Shown here one piece after another: positions 38,182-47,467 of a stretch of 64,000 nucleotides of DNA (the stretch's first letter is position 1; the number at the start of each line of letters is the position of its first letter). Below the pieces are notes generated by a model, which worked only from the letters and a program-made list of their open reading frames with translations, searched no databases and was not told the origin of the DNA. The stretch lies in assembly GCA_020725555.1 (NCBI GenBank), contig DYEU01000032.1:408949-472948 (forward strand). The letters are read 5' to 3'. This DNA is from Desulfatibacillum sp. (lineage in GTDB: Bacteria; Desulfobacterota; Desulfobacteria; Desulfobacterales; SpSt-501). A program made the position numbers and the translations under genes.

Positions 38182-38979
38182 GTGAAGATCGCCGTGTACC
38201 AGGCCAAGGGGGTGGGGGGGGACAAGGAGGCGGCGCTTGCGATCCTCGAGCGGCAGGCCCGCAGGGCCGCATCCCGCGGGGTGCGGCTGCTCGTCTTCCC
38301 GGAGCTCTTTCTCAGCGGCTACGCGATCGGCGAAGCCGTCGCCCGGCTCGCCGAGCCGGCGGACGGCCCCTCGGCCGCCCGCGCCGCCGCGGCGGCGCGG
38401 CGGGAGGGGATCGCCCTGCTTTACGGGTTTCCGGAGCGGGAAGGCGAGCGCCTCTACGATGCGGCGCTCCTCCTGGACGCGCAGGGCCGCCTGCGGGGTT
38501 GCCACCGCAAGCGGCATCTTTACGGCGAAGAGGAAAAACGCCGTTTCACCCGCGGGGAGGCGTGGACGATCCTGGAGCTCGAGGGCTGGCGCATCGGGGT
38601 GCTGATCTGCCTGGAGGTCGAGTTCCCCGAGACGGTGCGCCGGCTGGCCCTCGCCGGCGCCGATCTGGTCCTCGTCCCCGCGGCCCTGCCCAAGCCCGCG
38701 GACATCGTCGCCCGGAGCGTGGTGCCGGTCCGAGCCCTGGAAAACGGGGTCTTTCTCGCCTACGCGGACCTCTGCGGGGAGGAAGGCCGGGCCGCCTACT
38801 GCGGCCGGAGCGCGATCGTCGGCCCGGCCGGCGAGGTCCTCGCGCGGGCGGGTGCGAGCCGGCCGGGGCTCATCGCGGCCGAGCTCGATCCCGCACGCCT
38901 CGCCGCGACGCGAGGGTCCCTGTCCTACCTGGCCGAGCTGCGCGCGGATCCCGATTTCCCGGGCGGCCGCCCGCGCTGA
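38182..38979 (+). CDS. Carbon-nitrogen hydrolase (nitrilase family; N-carbamoylputrescine amidase-like)
   Basis: LLVFPELFLSGYAIG (Glu); KRHLYGEEEKRRFTRG (Lys); IGVLICLEVEFPE (Cys). Confidence 0.87.
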   Translation: MKIAVYQAKGVGGDKEAALAILERQARRAASRGVRLLVFPELFLSGYAIGEAVARLAEPADGPSAARAAAAARREGIALLYGFPEREGERLYDAALLLDAQGRLRGCHRKRHLYGEEEKRRFTRGEAWTILELEGWRIGVLICLEVEFPETVRRLALAGADLVLVPAALPKPADIVARSVVPVRALENGVFLAYADLCGEEGRAAYCGRSAIVGPAGEVLARAGASRPGLIAAELDPARLAATRGSLSYLAELRADPDFPGGRPR

Positions 38980-39036: not shown

Positions 39037-39456
39037 CTATTCGCCGAGGAGGCGTTTTAGCTTTTCGCGGTTTTTTTTCTCCACAAAGAGCAGGCGGCCG
39101 GCCCGCGCCTGGCGGATCTTTTCGGTCAGCTCGTTTACGTCCACCGGTTTGGGGATGAAGTCGAGGGCGCCGAGCTTCATCGCCTCCACGCCCCGGGACA
39201 CGGAAGGGTGCCCGGTGAGAAAGATCACCTGGGTTTCGGGCCTCTTTTCCAGCATCCGCTTCAGGGCCTCGATGCCGTCCATTTCCGGCATCATCAGGTC
39301 CAGCAGCACCGCATCGAAGGTTTCCTTCTCGATGAGCTCCAGCGCTTCCGCCGCCGAAGAGGCCGTTTGCACCTCCAGCTGCCGATTCCGCATTCGCTCC
39401 GCCAGGATCCGGCGGAAGGCCTCGTCGTCGTCCACGATCAAGACTTTTTCGGTCAT
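39037..39456 (-). CDS. Single-domain response regulator (REC plus C-terminal basic helix)
   Basis: KVLIVDDDEAFRRIL; AVLLDLMMPEMDG; FLTGHPS; IPKPVD. Confidence 0.92.
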   Translation of the reverse strand: MTEKVLIVDDDEAFRRILAERMRNRQLEVQTASSAAEALELIEKETFDAVLLDLMMPEMDGIEALKRMLEKRPETQVIFLTGHPSVSRGVEAMKLGALDFIPKPVDVNELTEKIRQARAGRLLFVEKKNREKLKRLLGE

Positions 39457-40172
39457 GTTTTTTCTCCTGCACGGTCCCGGGCCTCGCGGGGATCCCTCGT
39501 GATGGCGCGGGGGCTCGCCGCGGGAAGCCGGATCACCAGCTCGCCGGACCCCGAGGGGCAGGCCAAGGCGGCGCCGAGCGCGGTGCAGAGGTTCCGGGTC
39601 TCCGCCGCCGACAGGAAAACGGCCGCGGCGCCCGAGGGGGGGGCGAACCCCCGGATGCGGAAAGCGAGCCCCTCGCCCGCGCTTTCCCCGGCAAGCTCCA
39701 GGATCTTCGCGGGGCATCCCAGCGATGCGGCCCTCTCCAGACAGGACCACAAGAGGCGGATCAGGAGGAAGGGGCAAGCGGGGAGGGAGGCCGGCGCCGC
39801 AGGCGGCGTGGTCTGCAGCTGCAAGCCCTTGGCGGCCAGAAAACGGGCCGACAGGACGGCGAGCAGCTCGAGCAAGCCGGCCGCGTCCAGCGCCTTGGGT
39901 TCCTCGTCCACGCTGTGCGCGAATCGGTTCATGGCGGAGACGATGCGGTCGCCGCGCCGGACCTGCTGTTGCAGCTCCACCGCCAACCGCATGAGCCGCC
40001 CCGACTCGAGCGGCCGCCCCCTCTCGGCCATCCGGCACAGGTCCTCGAGCAGCCCGGCGTTTTCCTGGATCACGGCGAGCACGTTCTTGAGGTCGTGGGT
40101 GGCCGAGGCACTCACCGTGCCGAAGAACCGCATGGAGTCCCGGCTGAACGAGGAGCCTTCGTCGCCCGCCAT
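39453..40172 (-). CDS. Histidine-kinase-like protein, H-box present and ATPase domain degenerate (possible phosphotransfer protein)
   Basis: ATHDLKNVLAVIQENAGLLEDL H-box; N/G boxes not recognisable; overlaps downstream REC by 4 nt. Confidence 0.7.
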   Translation of the reverse strand: MAGDEGSSFSRDSMRFFGTVSASATHDLKNVLAVIQENAGLLEDLCRMAERGRPLESGRLMRLAVELQQQVRRGDRIVSAMNRFAHSVDEEPKALDAAGLLELLAVLSARFLAAKGLQLQTTPPAAPASLPACPFLLIRLLWSCLERAASLGCPAKILELAGESAGEGLAFRIRGFAPPSGAAAVFLSAAETRNLCTALGAALACPSGSGELVIRLPAASPRAITRDPREARDRAGEKT

Positions 40173-40184
40173 GGCGTTTTCCTC

Positions 40185-40544
40185 CTATCGGCCGAGGACA
40201 TCGTGGATTTTCGCGATCAGCTCCTCGATGTCCAGCGGCTTACCCAGGTAATACTCCTCCCCGACTTCCGTGACCCCGGCCTCGAAATCGCGATCCGACC
40301 CATGACCGGTCAGGAAAAGAAAGCGCATCCCGGGTTGGATTTGCTGCATCCGCTGCTTGAGTTGAATGCCGCCGATCCGGGGCATCTTGATGTCCAGGAC
40401 GGCAACATCGAAGGATTCCTCCGTGGTCAGGCGGAGGGCCTCTTCGCCGGTGACCGCATGGCTGGCCTTCATTCCCCGGAGGCGCAGTCGTTCGGCGAGC
40501 GTGCTCGCCAGCTCCTCTTCGTCGTCGACGATCAGAATGTTCAT
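40185..40544 (-). CDS. Single-domain response regulator (REC)
   Basis: MNILIVDDEEELASTLAERL; VAVLDIKMPRIGG; FLTGHGSD; LGKPLD. Confidence 0.92.
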   Translation of the reverse strand: MNILIVDDEEELASTLAERLRLRGMKASHAVTGEEALRLTTEESFDVAVLDIKMPRIGGIQLKQRMQQIQPGMRFLFLTGHGSDRDFEAGVTEVGEEYYLGKPLDIEELIAKIHDVLGR

Positions 40545-42280
40545 GGCGACGCGTTCCTCGAAGTCTCGGGCGGTGCGGTCTGCGGAAAGAAGAGGCGGAA
40601 TTCGGTTCCTTTCCCGGGCGCGCTCGACACCTCGATCCGTCCGCCGGCGTCCTTGACCAGCCCGTAGGTGATCGACAAGCCCAACCCCGTCCCGCCGGTT
40701 TCCGCCTTGGTGGTGAAAAAGGGCTCGAAGATGCGCTGGAGGTCGGCCGCCGGGATGCCGCAACCGTCGTCCGCGACCCGCACCTGCAGGCCGCCCTCGG
40801 CGGGCCGGGCTTCGATCTCCAGCCGCCCGCCGTCTTCCATGGCGGCGAAGGCATTGTTGATCAGGTTCAGAAAGATCTCCTGCAGCCGGCCCCGGTCGGC
40901 CAGGATGGGCGGGGTCTGCGGGGCGACGGCGACCGAGACCCGGATGGATCGATGCTCGGCCTCTTTGGCCAGGAAGCCCAGAACCTCCTCGATCACCTCC
41001 CCGATCTGCAGTTCCTCACGCCGGCCCGCACTGTGCCGGGCGAAGCGGAGCAGGCGCCGCGTGATCCGGGAGCAGCGTTCCACGGACTTCAGGATCGCCT
41101 CCACCAGGCCGAGGAGCTTGGGGTCCTCGGCGTATTCCCGCTGCAGCGTGAACAGATCCCGGATCAAGCCGGCCTTTTCGTTGATGATCGCCAGGGGGTT
41201 GTTGATTTCGTGGGCGATCCCCGCCGAGAGCCGGCCGAGGGAGGCCATCTTGTTGGCGTATTCCATGTGGTGCAGCATCGCGGTGCGCTCACGATCGGCG
41301 AGGTAGATCTGGTTCACGAGATGGGTGGACACGCCCAGAATGACCAGAACGATGATGAAGAGGCTGCCGGCAAGGAACAAGGTCCACTCGCGGCGGCTTT
41401 TCTTCCAGGCGGTCATCAGGTTTGCCTTGTTCTTCACCGCCATGAGCACGAAGGGGGTCTCGGGGATGAACGCATAGCCGATCACGAACGTCTCGGATCC
41501 GTGCGCCACCTCGATGACCTCGGTCCTTTCGGTGTAAGGGGGCACGGCCAGGGGGATCCTCTCCAGCGCCGGCCCGAACAGCCGCGAGGGCGTCTGCAGC
41601 ACCCCCTCGCGATTCACCAGGAAGAGATCCCCCTGGCCGCTGACTTCGAGCTCCATCAGGATGCGGTTCAGGGTCTGGAGCCCGATCGAGGTGCGGAGCA
41701 CGTAAAAGGATCCCTCCGGCAGGTTGTGCTTCACGGCGACGACGAGATGCGGTTGCCGGCGGAAGCCCAGGAACACCTCGCTGATGTAGACGCCCTTTTC
41801 CTGAACCACCTGGAACCATTCCTCGCCGCGGTAGTTGACCCCCGCTAGGTGAAAGGGCCCGACATAGGTGTGCTGGAGGCCCTCGGCGTTGATTACCCCG
41901 AGCTCGTAGAAATCGCCGAAGCCTTTCTGGAGATTGTCCAGCAAGGCCGTCAGGCGCAGCGGCTTGCTCAACTCCTCGTAAGGGTTGTCCCGGTCGACGA
42001 ACACGAGCGCCGATTTTCGCTCGGCGAGAAAAAAGGCGATGTTTTTGCGGGTGTTGGCGACCAGCCGCGTCGTCTGGTAGCGGATGTCCCCCTCGATCAC
42101 TTCGCGGCTGAGGCGTTGGTCGACGACGGCCATGAACGCCAGGGGGGAGAGCACGACGGCGAGGGTGAGCAGGACGGCGGTTTTCCAAAGGCGGCGGAAT
42201 TGAAACAGCGGTCGGTACGGCCCGGCCGATTCGCTCTCCAGGCTCCAGAAGAGGGGGCGGAAGGCGAATCGCAGGCTCAT
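40541..42280 (-). CDS. Membrane sensor histidine kinase (extracytoplasmic Cache-like domain, HisKA, HATPase)
   Basis: Two TM segments; GIAHEINNPLAIINEKAG; DDGCGIPAADLQRIFEPFFTTK; GTGLGLSITYGLV. Confidence 0.92.
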   Translation of the reverse strand: MSLRFAFRPLFWSLESESAGPYRPLFQFRRLWKTAVLLTLAVVLSPLAFMAVVDQRLSREVIEGDIRYQTTRLVANTRKNIAFFLAERKSALVFVDRDNPYEELSKPLRLTALLDNLQKGFGDFYELGVINAEGLQHTYVGPFHLAGVNYRGEEWFQVVQEKGVYISEVFLGFRRQPHLVVAVKHNLPEGSFYVLRTSIGLQTLNRILMELEVSGQGDLFLVNREGVLQTPSRLFGPALERIPLAVPPYTERTEVIEVAHGSETFVIGYAFIPETPFVLMAVKNKANLMTAWKKSRREWTLFLAGSLFIIVLVILGVSTHLVNQIYLADRERTAMLHHMEYANKMASLGRLSAGIAHEINNPLAIINEKAGLIRDLFTLQREYAEDPKLLGLVEAILKSVERCSRITRRLLRFARHSAGRREELQIGEVIEEVLGFLAKEAEHRSIRVSVAVAPQTPPILADRGRLQEIFLNLINNAFAAMEDGGRLEIEARPAEGGLQVRVADDGCGIPAADLQRIFEPFFTTKAETGGTGLGLSITYGLVKDAGGRIEVSSAPGKGTEFRLFFPQTAPPETSRNASP

Positions 42281-42320
42281 GGGGGGCTTCCTGGGAGATC
42301 CCCTCGGAGGGTCTCCGGAA

Positions 42321-43553
42321 TCAGCTCGATTTGCGGGCGGCGAGGTTCTGGCGCATTTTCTCTTTGGCCTGCCGCAGGGTTTCGGTCAACACCTCGATGT
42401 CCACCGGCTTGTTCAGGTAGGCGAATGCGCCCAACGCCATGCAGGTGACGCGGTCCGCTTCCGTCCCGTGGCCGGTCAGGATGATGACCTCGATCTCGGG
42501 GCGGGTCTGCTTCACGCGGCGCAGGACCTCGATGCCGTCGATGCCGGGCATTTTCAGATCCAGGATCATGACTTCGGGCTCATCCTCCTGGAGCATGGCG
42601 AGGGCCGATTCGCCGTCGTAGGCGACGGTCGACCCCATGTCGCGCATCAAGAGCCGCTCGGACAAGGTTTGCGCGAACTCCCGCTCGTCGTCCACCAGCA
42701 GAATCTTGGAGGGCAGGTTGAAATCGAAACGCCGGTAGACGTCGGCCTGGTGAAAGTCCTTGCCCACCCGCATGCGGACGTCGCGTACCCCGGGCACCGT
42801 GCGGGCGATCGTTTTCAACTCCTCCTCGAGCCGGCTGAGCATCAAGACATACTTGTTGATCGTGATTTCCACGACGCCGTCGGCCGCGGCGACGGCGACC
42901 GTGTGGCCCTCGTTGGCCAGGGCTGTCTCGACGCGGGCCGCAAGAAGGAAATCCGCCGCCGCCCGCCTGGAGTCCTCGGTGGGCTTCACCGCCGGCGACT
43001 CCAGATGCTGCAGGATGAGGTTCCCCGCCGCTTCGGGGGTGGTTTTGTCCGTCGGGAGGAGGATGTCGTGATGCGCGGGCGACCAGGGATCGGTATCGCC
43101 GGACGCCGCCTTGACCCAGGCCGCGAGGGCCTCGTCGTCCTTCTGGAGGATCCGGAGGGCCTCCTTGGCATCCACGCCCCGTTCCCGCGCGGCGACCTCG
43201 GCGCGAAACTTCCGATCCGCGATCAGGCAGACCCGCAGGACGTGGGTGACCGTCTTGGGAACGAGATAGGCCATGCGGCCGCACAGGAGAAGGCCCTCCT
43301 CCGTGAGCCGCCCTGCGAGCGCAAGCCGCAGGCAGGCGACCGAGCGTTCCATTTCGTGGGTGAAGGCGTTGAAGATCGACGTTTTGCCGGTCAGCACGCG
43401 GGAGAGCTTCTCCGCCGCGAAACCGCAGGTATCGGCTGCCGCGGCGATCCAGTCGCTTTCTTCCAGGCGCCGGTAGCCGCTTCGCCGTTCCAGTTCGGCG
43501 ACGAAGGGCTCGCTGCGGCAGTAGCTTCCGTACACCAGACTGATGAGCGGCAT
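42321..43553 (-). CDS. Multidomain response regulator: cytidylate-kinase-like N-domain, BON-like middle domain, C-terminal REC
   Basis: N: GSYCRSEPFVAELERRSGYRRLEESDW...LCGRMAYLVPKTVTHVLRVCLIADRKFRAE; middle: ARVETALANEGHTVAVAAADGVVEITI...GVRDVRMRV; C: ILLVDDEREFAQTL...MILDLKMPGIDG. Confidence 0.75.
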   Translation of the reverse strand: MPLISLVYGSYCRSEPFVAELERRSGYRRLEESDWIAAAADTCGFAAEKLSRVLTGKTSIFNAFTHEMERSVACLRLALAGRLTEEGLLLCGRMAYLVPKTVTHVLRVCLIADRKFRAEVAARERGVDAKEALRILQKDDEALAAWVKAASGDTDPWSPAHHDILLPTDKTTPEAAGNLILQHLESPAVKPTEDSRRAAADFLLAARVETALANEGHTVAVAAADGVVEITINKYVLMLSRLEEELKTIARTVPGVRDVRMRVGKDFHQADVYRRFDFNLPSKILLVDDEREFAQTLSERLLMRDMGSTVAYDGESALAMLQEDEPEVMILDLKMPGIDGIEVLRRVKQTRPEIEVIILTGHGTEADRVTCMALGAFAYLNKPVDIEVLTETLRQAKEKMRQNLAARKSS

Positions 43554-43572
43554 GGGACCCTCTTTCTCCCCC

Positions 43573-45717
43573 TCAACGGCCCCGGAGGCGGGCGCTTTTC
43601 AAAGGGCATTCCGGTTCGCTCTTATCCACGTGCGTCCGGGGGTGGATGGCCTCGATCGCCTTCTCCATGGTCGGGTAAATGTGATCTTCGCCGATCTTGG
43701 CATCGAGATGGGTTCGTTTCAATACCCGCATGACGGTCTCGTTGACTCCGCTCAGCGAGACATCCAGCCCGGCGCTGCGGATGCGGTCGACGAGGAGGGA
43801 GAGGGTCTCCTCGCCGGAGGCGTCGATGTCGTTGATGCCGTTGGCCACGATGACGATGTGCTTGAGCCGGGGGCTGTTTTTCATGCGCTCGGTGATCCGG
43901 TCTTCGAGCCAGCTGGAATTGGCGAAAAAAAGCGGCGCGTCGAAGCGGATCAGGGCGATGAAGGCGCATTCCTCGAGACCGTGGGCCGCAACACAGCGGA
44001 GCGCCTGGTCAGGATGCCGGGCGAGCGTGGCCACCGTGGGGCGCATCACCTTGTAGAGGAAGACCCCCAGCGAAAGCGCGACTCCGACCAGGATCCCCTG
44101 GTCCAGGTGTGGGGCGAAAACCAGGGTGGACACGAAGGTGATCACCGAGATGACACCGTCCGTCGGCTGGGCCTTCCAGGCATGAACAAAGCCGCTGACG
44201 TTCAACAGGCCGATCACCGCCATCATGATCACCGCAGCCAGGACCGATTGGGGCAGGTGGTAGAGAAGCGGTGTGAAAAAGAGCAGCATGACCACCACCG
44301 TAAGGCTGGTGAACACGCTGGATAGGCCGGTGATGGCCCCCGCTTGGAGGTTCACAGCGGAGCGGGAGAAGGAGCCGGAGACGGGAAAGCTTTGGCTGAA
44401 GGCGCCGGACAAGTTGGCCAGGCCCTGGCCGACCAGCTCCTGGTTGGGGTCGAGCCGCTGGCCGGTTTTCGCCGCTATGGCCTTGGCGATCGAGATCGCC
44501 TCCATGAACCCGAGAAAGGAGATGATGATCGCGTAGGGCAAGAGGTTGAGGCCCAGGGCAAGGTCGAATTTCGGCAGGGACATCTCCGGCAGCCCCCTCG
44601 GGACGGTGCCCACCACGTCCCCCCCGCCGACAAGCCGCAAGCGATCTTCCTGCAGCGGGGCGCTGCCCACGTGCAGGCGCCAGCGCCGATCTCCGGGTTT
44701 TTGCTCCGCAGGGAGCCGGTCTTCGGGGACAAAGCGCGCCTCCGCTTCCGTGGGCCCTACGGCCCGGAACACGATTTGCCGCAGGGTCTCGCGGTGGCTC
44801 CTTCGTTGCGCGTTGAGCTGTTCGAGCTCCGCCGTGATCCGCTCCACGGCGTGCCGGGCGTCAAGGACGGCCAATGGATCGCCTTCTTCGTTTCGGCGCT
44901 GCAGCAGGGCCGAAGCCCGGCTGCGCTCTTCCCCGAGCCGGGCGATTTCCATCGAGATGGCGTTGTAGCGCCGGATGTGTTCGTGAACGGCGGGGTCGTC
45001 GATCTGCTGAAGGGGCACCTCCCGGTTGTGCTGGTAGCCGGTCGCCCAGGAGAGGAACGTGGTGAGCGCCACGGCCACCAGGACGTTCGGGATGCGCGGG
45101 TTGAGCCGCTTGAGCGTGTACATGACCGCAAAGGCGAGCGCCCCCAGCCAGAACGTCGGCCAGTGGGTGAAGTGGATCGCGGCCTGGATGACCCGCATCA
45201 CGGTTTCGTAGTGGTGTTCCGCCGTGTCCACGTGAACGCCGAAGATCTTGGATAGCTGCGAGGTGGCGATGATGAGCGCGGCGGCGTTGGTGAAGCCGTT
45301 GACCACGGGATGGGAAAGAAAATTCACGACGAGACCGAGCCGCAGCAGGCCGAGGGCCAGCTGAATCACCCCGACCAGGAGGGCGAGGAAGACGGCGAGT
45401 TCGACGAAACGCGGGCTCCCGGCCGGGGCGAACGGGGAGAGCGAAGCGAAGGCCATCAGGGAGACCACGGCTACGGGCCCGGTGGCGAGCTGGCGGCTGG
45501 AACCGAAGAGCGCGGCCACCATCGGCGGGAGAAACGAGGTGTACAACCCGTAATAGGGGGGCAGGCCGGCGAGTTGGGCGTACGCCATCGACTGGGGGAT
45601 CAGGACGAGGGCCACGGTCAGGCCGGCGATCATGTCCGCCTGGAGGGTAGCACGGCGGTAGCCCCGAAACCAAGCGAGAAACGGAAAGAAGCGGCGCAGC
45701 AGGTTTCGTTCCTTCAT
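43573..45717 (-). CDS. SulP family anion transporter with STAS domain and large hydrophilic insertion
   Basis: DMIAGLTVALVLIPQSMAYAQLAGLPPYYGLYTSFLPP; C-terminal STAS; about 140-aa insertion before GTVPRGLPEMSLP. Confidence 0.93.
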   Translation of the reverse strand: MKERNLLRRFFPFLAWFRGYRRATLQADMIAGLTVALVLIPQSMAYAQLAGLPPYYGLYTSFLPPMVAALFGSSRQLATGPVAVVSLMAFASLSPFAPAGSPRFVELAVFLALLVGVIQLALGLLRLGLVVNFLSHPVVNGFTNAAALIIATSQLSKIFGVHVDTAEHHYETVMRVIQAAIHFTHWPTFWLGALAFAVMYTLKRLNPRIPNVLVAVALTTFLSWATGYQHNREVPLQQIDDPAVHEHIRRYNAISMEIARLGEERSRASALLQRRNEEGDPLAVLDARHAVERITAELEQLNAQRRSHRETLRQIVFRAVGPTEAEARFVPEDRLPAEQKPGDRRWRLHVGSAPLQEDRLRLVGGGDVVGTVPRGLPEMSLPKFDLALGLNLLPYAIIISFLGFMEAISIAKAIAAKTGQRLDPNQELVGQGLANLSGAFSQSFPVSGSFSRSAVNLQAGAITGLSSVFTSLTVVVMLLFFTPLLYHLPQSVLAAVIMMAVIGLLNVSGFVHAWKAQPTDGVISVITFVSTLVFAPHLDQGILVGVALSLGVFLYKVMRPTVATLARHPDQALRCVAAHGLEECAFIALIRFDAPLFFANSSWLEDRITERMKNSPRLKHIVIVANGINDIDASGEETLSLLVDRIRSAGLDVSLSGVNETVMRVLKRTHLDAKIGEDHIYPTMEKAIEAIHPRTHVDKSEPECPLKSARLRGR

Positions 45718-46343
45718 GGAGGGTGCGGCTCCTTTTCCAGCATGCGTCGGGTGAGGGCGAGGGCCTCGTAGTAGAGAGCCCCCGCCTCGTAAAGATGAAA
45801 GGTATGGACCTTGATGATGCCGTCGACCAGGGCGAAGAGGACCATGGCGATTCGGCGCGGGTCTCCGGGGATGACGGATCCCTCCGCCTGACCGAGACGC
45901 ACCGCCTCTTCGAAGAGCCCGGTGAACAAGGTGTGGATTTGTTCCAGCCGCTGCCGGCACGTGGGGTTGGCCACGGCAAGCTCGTAGGGAAAACGGTGAT
46001 GCAGGATCAGAAAAATCTCGGCACGGCTTCCGGCCAGCCGCAGAAGGAAGTCGACCACGGCGAGTACACGCTCGATGCCCGTGACGGGCCGCTTGCAGAA
46101 CTGGAGCTCGTGCTCGTGGAGCGCCTGCCGGATTTCTTCTTCTACGCGTTCAAGGATCGCAAGAAAGATGTCTTCCTTGGTCTTGAAATGGTAGAAGACC
46201 GTGCTTCCCGCGGCTCCCACGCGGGCCGCCACCTCGCCCATCGTGGTGTCCCGAAATCCCTTGGCGGCAAAGAGCGCGGTGGCCGCCTTCAGGATGTCAT
46301 CCCGTTTGGATGCGGCTCGAGGGCCGGTCGCTTTCTTCGGCAT
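45714..46343 (-). CDS. TetR/AcrR family transcriptional regulator
   Basis: RDDILKAATALFAAKGFRDTTMGEVAARVGAAGSTVFYHFKTKEDIFLAIL. Confidence 0.93.
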   Translation of the reverse strand: MPKKATGPRAASKRDDILKAATALFAAKGFRDTTMGEVAARVGAAGSTVFYHFKTKEDIFLAILERVEEEIRQALHEHELQFCKRPVTGIERVLAVVDFLLRLAGSRAEIFLILHHRFPYELAVANPTCRQRLEQIHTLFTGLFEEAVRLGQAEGSVIPGDPRRIAMVLFALVDGIIKVHTFHLYEAGALYYEALALTRRMLEKEPHPP

Positions 46344-46647: not shown

Positions 46648-46667
46648 AACTGACTGATCAGTCAGTT
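46648..46667. promoter_or_regulatory. Perfect 20-bp palindrome, candidate TetR-family operator
   Basis: AACTGACTGATCAGTCAGTT; next to minus-strand TTGACA (46698-46693) plus AT-rich -10 (about 46668-46675). Confidence 0.65.
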
Positions 46668-46705
46668 GAATATTGGTCTAAAAGAATCCCTTTGTCAAGA
46701 AAATT

Positions 46706-47467
46706 TTAAGGTTCCGTTACGGAACGAACAAATTGCCCATGGTGCAGCCGGTGGGTGTCCCCCGGGATCTGAAGCTTCAGGCCGGCAAAGCTCACGCAAT
46801 GGTCATTGCCCACAACCCGCTCGTGATGCTCGCATAAGATTTCCCCCAGATCACCCCCCTGATCGGGCACAAAAGCCGAGCCCTGGTCCCGGGGGGCGCG
46901 CTTGAACTCGGCATTATAGGCCGGCAGATAGACCTCCCGCAGATACCGGTTGGCCTCCTCGATCTCGGTGATCCCCGCCAGGGCCAGCTCCTTGACCAAC
47001 CGATCCTGGTGCGTCTCAAAGGCCCGCTCACTTCGCCCCCGGGCCTGCGGAGAATAGGCCGGGATCATCTCAATACCTAACTGCTGCATCGCGCGACCAA
47101 ACTGCGTCAACGCCCCTTTGTCCACCTTGCCCCCGGCTTGCCCCGTGTGCCAATAGTGGCTGCCGCGGTCGGTGTATAACGAACAAAATAACCCCCACCC
47201 CTCGATCACCTCCCGGATCCCTTGAAAACTCGAGGCCGTACCCTCCTCCTCCACAAAAAACATCGAATAGTGCTCGTTGGTCGCATCGTCCATCGTGACC
47301 ATCAAATCCCAGTACACCCCCGGCACCCATTGATGGCGACTGCCGTCCTGGTGCAACATCATCCACGGCCAGGCCGCCTCATAGCGATGCATGGAGCGGC
47401 GAAAACTGCGCTCACCGACCCCCAACCACCGCGCCGCCTCCGCCTGCAGCAACTCCGTCCGTCTCAT
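46706..47467 (-). pseudogene. Decayed ISNCY-type transposase (integrase core) with internal and C-terminal loss
   Basis: MMLHQDGSRHQWVPGVYWDLMVTMDDATNEHYSMFFVEEEGTASSFQGIREV...AYSPQARGRSERAFETHQ; short N-part and abnormal C-terminus. Confidence 0.75.

Follow-up and report, generated by a model that had tools for sequence, protein, structure and literature searches.

The window analysed here, 64,000 nucleotides of Desulfatibacillum sp. (assembly GCA_020725555.1, contig DYEU01000032.1, positions 408,949 to 472,948), contains a seven-gene operon at 39037-46343, possibly a self-contained module by which sulfate-reducing bacteria control sulfate uptake. Its seven intact open reading frames (ORFs) follow one another in the same direction on the minus strand and encode, in order, a TetR-family regulator, a SulP transporter with a STAS domain, a pseudo-cytidylate-kinase protein with a receiver (CK/REC), a dCache sensor histidine kinase (HK), a stand-alone receiver (REC1), a degenerate kinase (dHK) and a second stand-alone receiver (REC2). 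That this unit is real, and conserved, is close to certain.

Where would a relay built from these proteins end? A DNA-binding or other output domain is missing from each of the three receivers, Pfam showing receivers only, and all three receiver types are output-less across loci, as a preliminary description of this DNA had noted for the window. A single 846-residue protein of Desulfatibacillum alkenivorans combines SulP, STAS and a receiver (locus L013:5844-8381; Pfam Sulfate_transp, STAS and Response_reg), and two genomes of another family (L094, L097) have the same SulP-STAS-receiver fusion in a single frame. The receiver tree falls into three separate groups, each kept across the phylum, and the fused receivers group with those of the CK/REC proteins (the starred branch, support 100/98), apart from the REC1 clade (100/97) and the more weakly supported REC2 group. 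In addition, the CK/REC gene adjoins sulP in almost every locus. The fusions and the lack of DNA-binding domains are the best evidence that the CK/REC receiver would act on the STAS domain of SulP. A post-translational output on STAS had been suggested in the preliminary description; natural fusions now speak for it, while the mechanism itself is one that we infer.

The same description took the system to be undescribed, which it is not. A recent report (Sci Adv 2025; PMC11887813) presents a SulP cluster that also encodes a two-component system and a TetR repressor, is widespread among Desulfobacteraceae and is assigned to sulfate uptake; its sensor kinases have an N-terminal Cache domain (IPR033479), and its TetR operator is a 16-bp palindrome. 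SulP is there said to be formed abundantly and constitutively, and sulfate-responsive control of the promoter by WalR-type regulators together with TetR is proposed. On a comparison of descriptions, the window operon almost certainly belongs to this cluster family.

Conservation of the seven-gene unit

The seven genes are very likely co-transcribed, since they are joined by 4-nt ATGA overlaps at three junctions (TetR/SulP, HK/REC1 and dHK/REC2) and by gaps of 19, 40 and 12 nt at the others. The same set is found in divergent genomes. Across the phylum, 297 genomes from 199 genera were sampled, and 37 of them, from 30 genera and 17 families, have the CK/REC protein. A scan of GTDB contigs with this protein gave ten relatives with 50-63% identity, all of full or nearly full length; on contigs that were long enough, most or all neighbour genes were shared among them, and the neighbourhood is kept in Desulfobacterales, Desulfobulbus, Desulfovibrio/Pseudodesulfovibrio and Desulfatibacillum. 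At ~30-72% identity, the full set of three receivers and two His-box proteins is found again in the same gene order, which is far beyond chance. Gene-order analysis of the fetched loci placed SulP directly upstream of CK/REC in 33 loci and TetR ahead of SulP, as the first gene of the operon, in 21, with the exact seven-gene order in at least 12 (a few loci may be one genome in two collections). The preliminary account of the gene arrangement, with its overlaps and short gaps, and of one transporter packaged with three receivers, two His-box proteins and its own TetR therefore stands, and the neighbourhood check extends the arrangement beyond close strains.

The module is linked to dsrA. This gene is found in 35 of the 37 CK/REC genomes, whereas about half of the whole sample has it (Fisher p 1e-9, uncorrected for phylogeny); the other two have weak dsrA matches, and one of these genomes is 67% complete. 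The source genome has dsrA ~23 kb before the window, so the host is probably a sulfate reducer.

Components of the putative relay and the transporter

Pfam matching of the operon proteins bears out the domains read from the sequence in the preliminary description (TetR, SulP-STAS, Cytidylate_kin2, the Cache kinase, the receivers and, in dHK orthologues, HisKA); the BON domain proposed for CK/REC fares less well. The sensor kinase matches dCache_1 (E 3e-12), and the residues R88, S167, R174, H178, R196, Q229 and T230 of this domain are kept in 97-100% of 39 orthologues, a pattern compatible with one common small anionic ligand. One shared ligand of this kind has likewise been argued for the Cache sensors of the published cluster (PMC11887813).

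Cytidylate_kin2 and Response_reg were found together in all ten CK/REC orthologues scanned. The N-terminal P-loop of cytidylate kinases (GxxxxGK[ST]) does not occur in the CK/REC alignment, and the pattern appears anywhere in the first 120 residues in just 3 of 43 proteins. BON gave a Pfam match in one orthologue of ten (0.075), and the best PDB matches of a middle-region profile were the BON proteins YraP (0.015) and OsmY (0.064), which hints weakly at such a domain. The receiver Asp, Thr and Lys of CK/REC are invariant (51/51). Asp53 of REC2 is likewise invariant (32/32), with its Thr and Lys conserved in the alignment, and the phosphorylation-site residues of REC1 are intact. At one locus, a further CK-like protein that has no receiver is encoded 3' of the operon (L078:9154-10026, in the orientation of the CK strand).

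The degenerate kinase has a weak HisKA match of its own (E 0.0015), and all nine orthologues scanned match HisKA (best 1.6e-6). Its phospho-acceptor His26 and a second histidine, His86, are each kept in 34/34 orthologues, and the ATP-binding glycine box (G-box) is absent from every one of these. The predicted fold is a DHp plus a CA-like domain (AlphaFold2, AF2; mean confidence, pLDDT, 83), and the Foldseek matches are histidine kinases. These features suggest that dHK is likely to be a histidine phosphotransferase or phosphatase, the H-box allowing the phosphatase role equally. The top fold match, LvrB, was considered as proof of phosphotransferase function and set aside: LvrB itself has been described as a histidine kinase under REC control, and the match therefore supports the DHp-CA fold only.

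In the sporulation relay of Bacillus, phosphate passes through a kinase, the stand-alone receiver Spo0F, the kinase-dead DHp/CA-like protein Spo0B (ChpT in alphaproteobacteria) and a further receiver. We take the anatomy of dHK and REC1 to resemble that of Spo0B or ChpT together with Spo0F: the operon, too, has a kinase, a stand-alone receiver with an intact site, a kinase-dead DHp protein that retains its His and a further receiver. On this anatomy, the natural reading would be a path from kinase to REC1, dHK and a receiver, that is, a His-Asp-His-Asp order. Unlike the Spo0F/Spo0B relay, the operon has no DNA-binding end point of the Spo0A type and is centred on a transporter, and its phosphotransfer is a prediction.

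What does the transporter carry? The closest solved relative of the operon SulP is AtSULTR4;1 (PDB 7lhv, 1e-98), a plant H+/sulfate symporter in which Q112, Y116, S392 and R393 form the sulfate site and E347 is the proton residue (PMC8298490). The corresponding residues of SulP (Q42, Y46, S451, R452 and E406) align with these and are invariant in 34/34 operon SulPs. Eight loci lack SulP beside the module, and six of them have another sulfur-oxyanion-type transporter nearby, TauE in L104, L105 and L116 and a Na_sulph_symp/CitMHS (DASS) protein in L109, L110 and L112. Taken with the linkage to dsrA, the site residues and these replacements make sulfate the quite probable substrate, and SulP is likely to be an H+/sulfate symporter. 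The preliminary reading as an anion-sensing and transport system is borne out as regards a transporter-linked unit; the anion, which it had left undecided, is most likely sulfate. Beside the CK/REC variants with DASS or TauE lie PPDK_N/PEP-utiliser proteins of 872-874 aa (L112:1606-4221 and L116:3393-6014), a possible further partner of the module.

The operon SulPs share with AtSULTR4;1 the SulP fold, the sulfate- and proton-site residues and the STAS domain, and differ from it in having receiver partners and an insert between transmembrane helices TM7 and TM8. This insert is 136-142 residues long (~138) in 34/34 operon SulPs, as compared with 7-11 residues for the same stretch in two SulP paralogues of the source genome. 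AF2 predicts a helical hairpin for it (pLDDT 77-85, in a model with a mean pLDDT of 47 that is usable only for the hairpin and the STAS domain); a hairpin with a small beta region is the predicted structure. It would face the periplasm, given a cytoplasmic N-terminus and seven preceding helices in a 7+7 fold; contact with the dCache sensor is speculation.

The proposed mechanism and its alternatives

The mechanism that we favour would run as follows. SulP would import sulfate with protons, and the dCache kinase would sense a ligand in the periplasm (sulfate itself, most likely) and autophosphorylate. Phosphate would then pass to the Spo0F-like REC1, on to His26 of the Spo0B-like dHK and from there to the remaining receivers. 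The CK/REC receiver would dock on the STAS domain of SulP, changing transport activity according to its phosphorylation, and the amount of the module would be set by TetR or, in some relatives, by an NtrC-type pair. In one family, an HK and a sigma-54 NtrC-type regulator (L101:2569-3918) take the place of TetR while the receiver core is kept, and the same arrangement is seen, by position and size, in L100, L102, L106 and L108; transcriptional control is thus separable from the core relay.

A main output that is non-transcriptional seems to us moderately probable. The complete scheme, with a Spo0F/Spo0B-like relay gating SulP through STAS and TetR setting expression, has an even chance at best. 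A relay that ends at an SLC26/SulP transporter and controls it directly through STAS in a phosphorylation-dependent manner, with CK/REC as the adaptor (or a fused receiver in some lineages) and perhaps with this adaptor swapped onto TauE or DASS, is a possibility that we hold tentatively and would place below even.

Several points weigh against this mechanism. The case is built on sequence and predicted structure, and phosphotransfer specificity is not readable from sequence; ligand, relay order, direction of regulation and STAS contact are what we infer. The three fused receivers form one clade, so the fusion may have arisen once. Residues of the AtSULTR4;1 type do not by themselves discriminate sulfate from other anions (PMC8298490), and the association with dsrA is confounded by phylogeny. 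Finally, the receivers could have TetR, or a DNA-binding protein whose gene lies elsewhere, as their partner.

How would the operon work otherwise? According to the published model, external sulfate acts through the kinase and response regulators to switch the transporter operon's promoter, and TetR adds a second layer of control. It was proposed for the Desulfobacteraceae sulP cluster (PMC11887813), and TetR and a palindromic operator (a tentative one in the source genome) are present here as well. On the other hand, all three receivers are without a DNA-binding domain, as are their counterparts across loci, and SulP is constitutive and abundant according to that report; we regard direct promoter control as rather unlikely. 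Transcription might instead be reached indirectly, a phosphorylated receiver serving as an anti-repressor that lifts repression by TetR. The first position of TetR in so many loci, and its retention with the module even where SulP is missing (L103-L105), would suit such a role, but several loci, including those with the fusion, have no TetR and yet keep the full receiver core, and no fusion of TetR with a receiver was seen among the loci. This, too, appears unlikely.

Two further alternatives concern the transporter. SulP could be mainly a co-sensor, its insert or transport state setting the activity of the dCache kinase while the receivers signal to targets encoded elsewhere. The insert of ~130 residues, predicted to be periplasmic, would fit such a role, being a feature of every operon SulP that two paralogues lack, and the transporters DctA and DauA around DcuS provide a precedent (PMC5703999). 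However, the module persists where TauE or DASS replaces SulP, and the STAS-receiver fusion argues for signal flow towards the transporter, which leaves a co-sensing SulP quite improbable. Least probable of all is that the substrate of SulP is a different anion (bicarbonate, thiosulfate or a carboxylate, for example) and that the link to sulfate is a by-product of taxonomy. Characterised bacterial SulPs do include bicarbonate and dicarboxylate carriers (PMC5840216; PMC5703999), but the plant H+/sulfate symporter is the closest solved relative and shares all its site residues with SulP, and both the DASS/TauE substitutions and the presence of dsrA in nearly all CK/REC genomes count against it.

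Promoter region, neighbours and related systems

The features of the operon are collected in Table 1. A mechanical ORF list puts the start of SulP at GTG 45960; ATG 45717 is the likely start, since the alignments of relatives begin at that position.

Table 1. Coordinates of the operon genes and of candidate control sites in the window
Feature	Position	Strand	Basis
TetR-family regulator, operon gene 1	45714..46343	-	TetR_N E 1.7e-15
SulP/SLC26 anion transporter with C-terminal STAS, 714 aa	43573..45717	-	Sulfate_transp 3e-106, STAS 1e-14
SulP insert, residues 225-362, between TM7 and TM8	44632..45045	-	alignment and AF2
Pseudo-cytidylate-kinase / BON-like / receiver protein (CK/REC), 410 aa	42321..43553	-	Cytidylate_kin2 and Response_reg
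Membrane sensor HK, 579 aa	40541..42280	-	dCache_1, HisKA, HATPase_c
REC1, stand-alone receiver of Spo0F-like size, 119 aa	40185..40544	-	Response_reg 7e-24
dHK, kinase-dead protein with predicted DHp/CA fold, 239 aa	39453..40172	-	HisKA in orthologues, AF2 fold
REC2, stand-alone receiver, 139 aa	39037..39456	-	Response_reg 4e-33
Candidate TetR operator, 18-bp perfect palindrome ACTGACTGATCAGTCAGT	46649..46666	.	shuffle test
Sigma-70-like promoter TTGACA-N18-AATATT	46669..46698	-	10/12 matches, 0.1 expected by chance

The palindrome lies directly after the promoter-like site, and its 14-bp core had no match in 100 shuffles. About half of the TetR-bearing relatives have palindromes of the type GACTGA-N4-TCAGTC 17-58 nt before tetR. 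The window copy, in contrast, is without the 4-nt spacer and lies ~300 nt ahead of tetR, next to a transposase-like gene; a T run comes after it, and for these reasons it might be a (weak) terminator. The case for a palindromic TetR operator thus appears good for the family and tentative for the source genome. The transposase-like ORF (46706-47467, minus strand), one copy of which was found in the genome, lies just upstream of the operon and may have rearranged the tetR promoter region. Past the other end, the next ORF (38182-38979, plus strand, 265 aa) runs in the opposite direction and reads as perhaps a nitrilase-type amidohydrolase.

As in the cluster of PMC11887813, SulP, a Cache kinase, response regulators and TetR are found together in sulfate reducers, with a palindrome upstream (in the window, the tentative operator). 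That report draws WalR-type regulators at promoters, whereas the receivers here are without DNA-binding domains; its main text names no pseudo-cytidylate kinase, kinase-dead phosphotransferase or STAS-receiver fusion; and it covers Desulfobacteraceae and Dv. salexigens, as against 17 families in our phylum sample. What is new relative to its main text is the lack of DNA-binding outputs, the STAS-receiver fusion, the transporter swaps, the conserved SulP insert and the wider distribution. Searches of open-access papers turned up neither a SulP-receiver fusion nor a CK/REC protein, and the text of the 2018 sulfate-transporter survey by Marietou (PMC5840216) yielded nothing on kinases, response regulators or gene neighbourhoods.

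The nitrate-resistance cluster DVU0251-DVU0245 was considered as a published match and rejected, having TauE and PPDK and no SulP or CK/REC (PMC4001038). This cluster and Dde_0597-0605 resemble the operon in combining a sulfur-oxyanion-type transporter (TauE), a kinase and a receiver protein in sulfate reducers, and differ in that TauE, a PtxB-like protein and PPDK replace SulP, CK/REC and the kinase-dead DHp protein. The source genome has a second sulfur-oxyanion-type cluster (L117; G000:C31:14000-33900), with two TauE, a PPDK_N/PEP-utiliser protein, a dCache kinase and several stand-alone receivers, which is similar in content to the Desulfovibrio nitrate cluster. In Escherichia coli, DctA/DcuS and the SulP protein DauA likewise couple a secondary transporter to a two-component system; there, unlike in the scheme favoured here, the transporter tunes the kinase and the output is DcuR on DNA (PMC5703999). 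No receiver genes are known to accompany that of DauA.

Uptake of sulfate is the first step of sulfate reduction, and its regulation in these bacteria is poorly known. Receivers without output domains that travel with the STAS domain of SulP, and are sometimes fused to it, argue against the promoter-binding model of PMC11887813. The module makes the regulation of sulfate uptake directly testable; if the mechanism favoured here is true, dissimilatory sulfate uptake would have a switch that runs directly from receiver to transporter.

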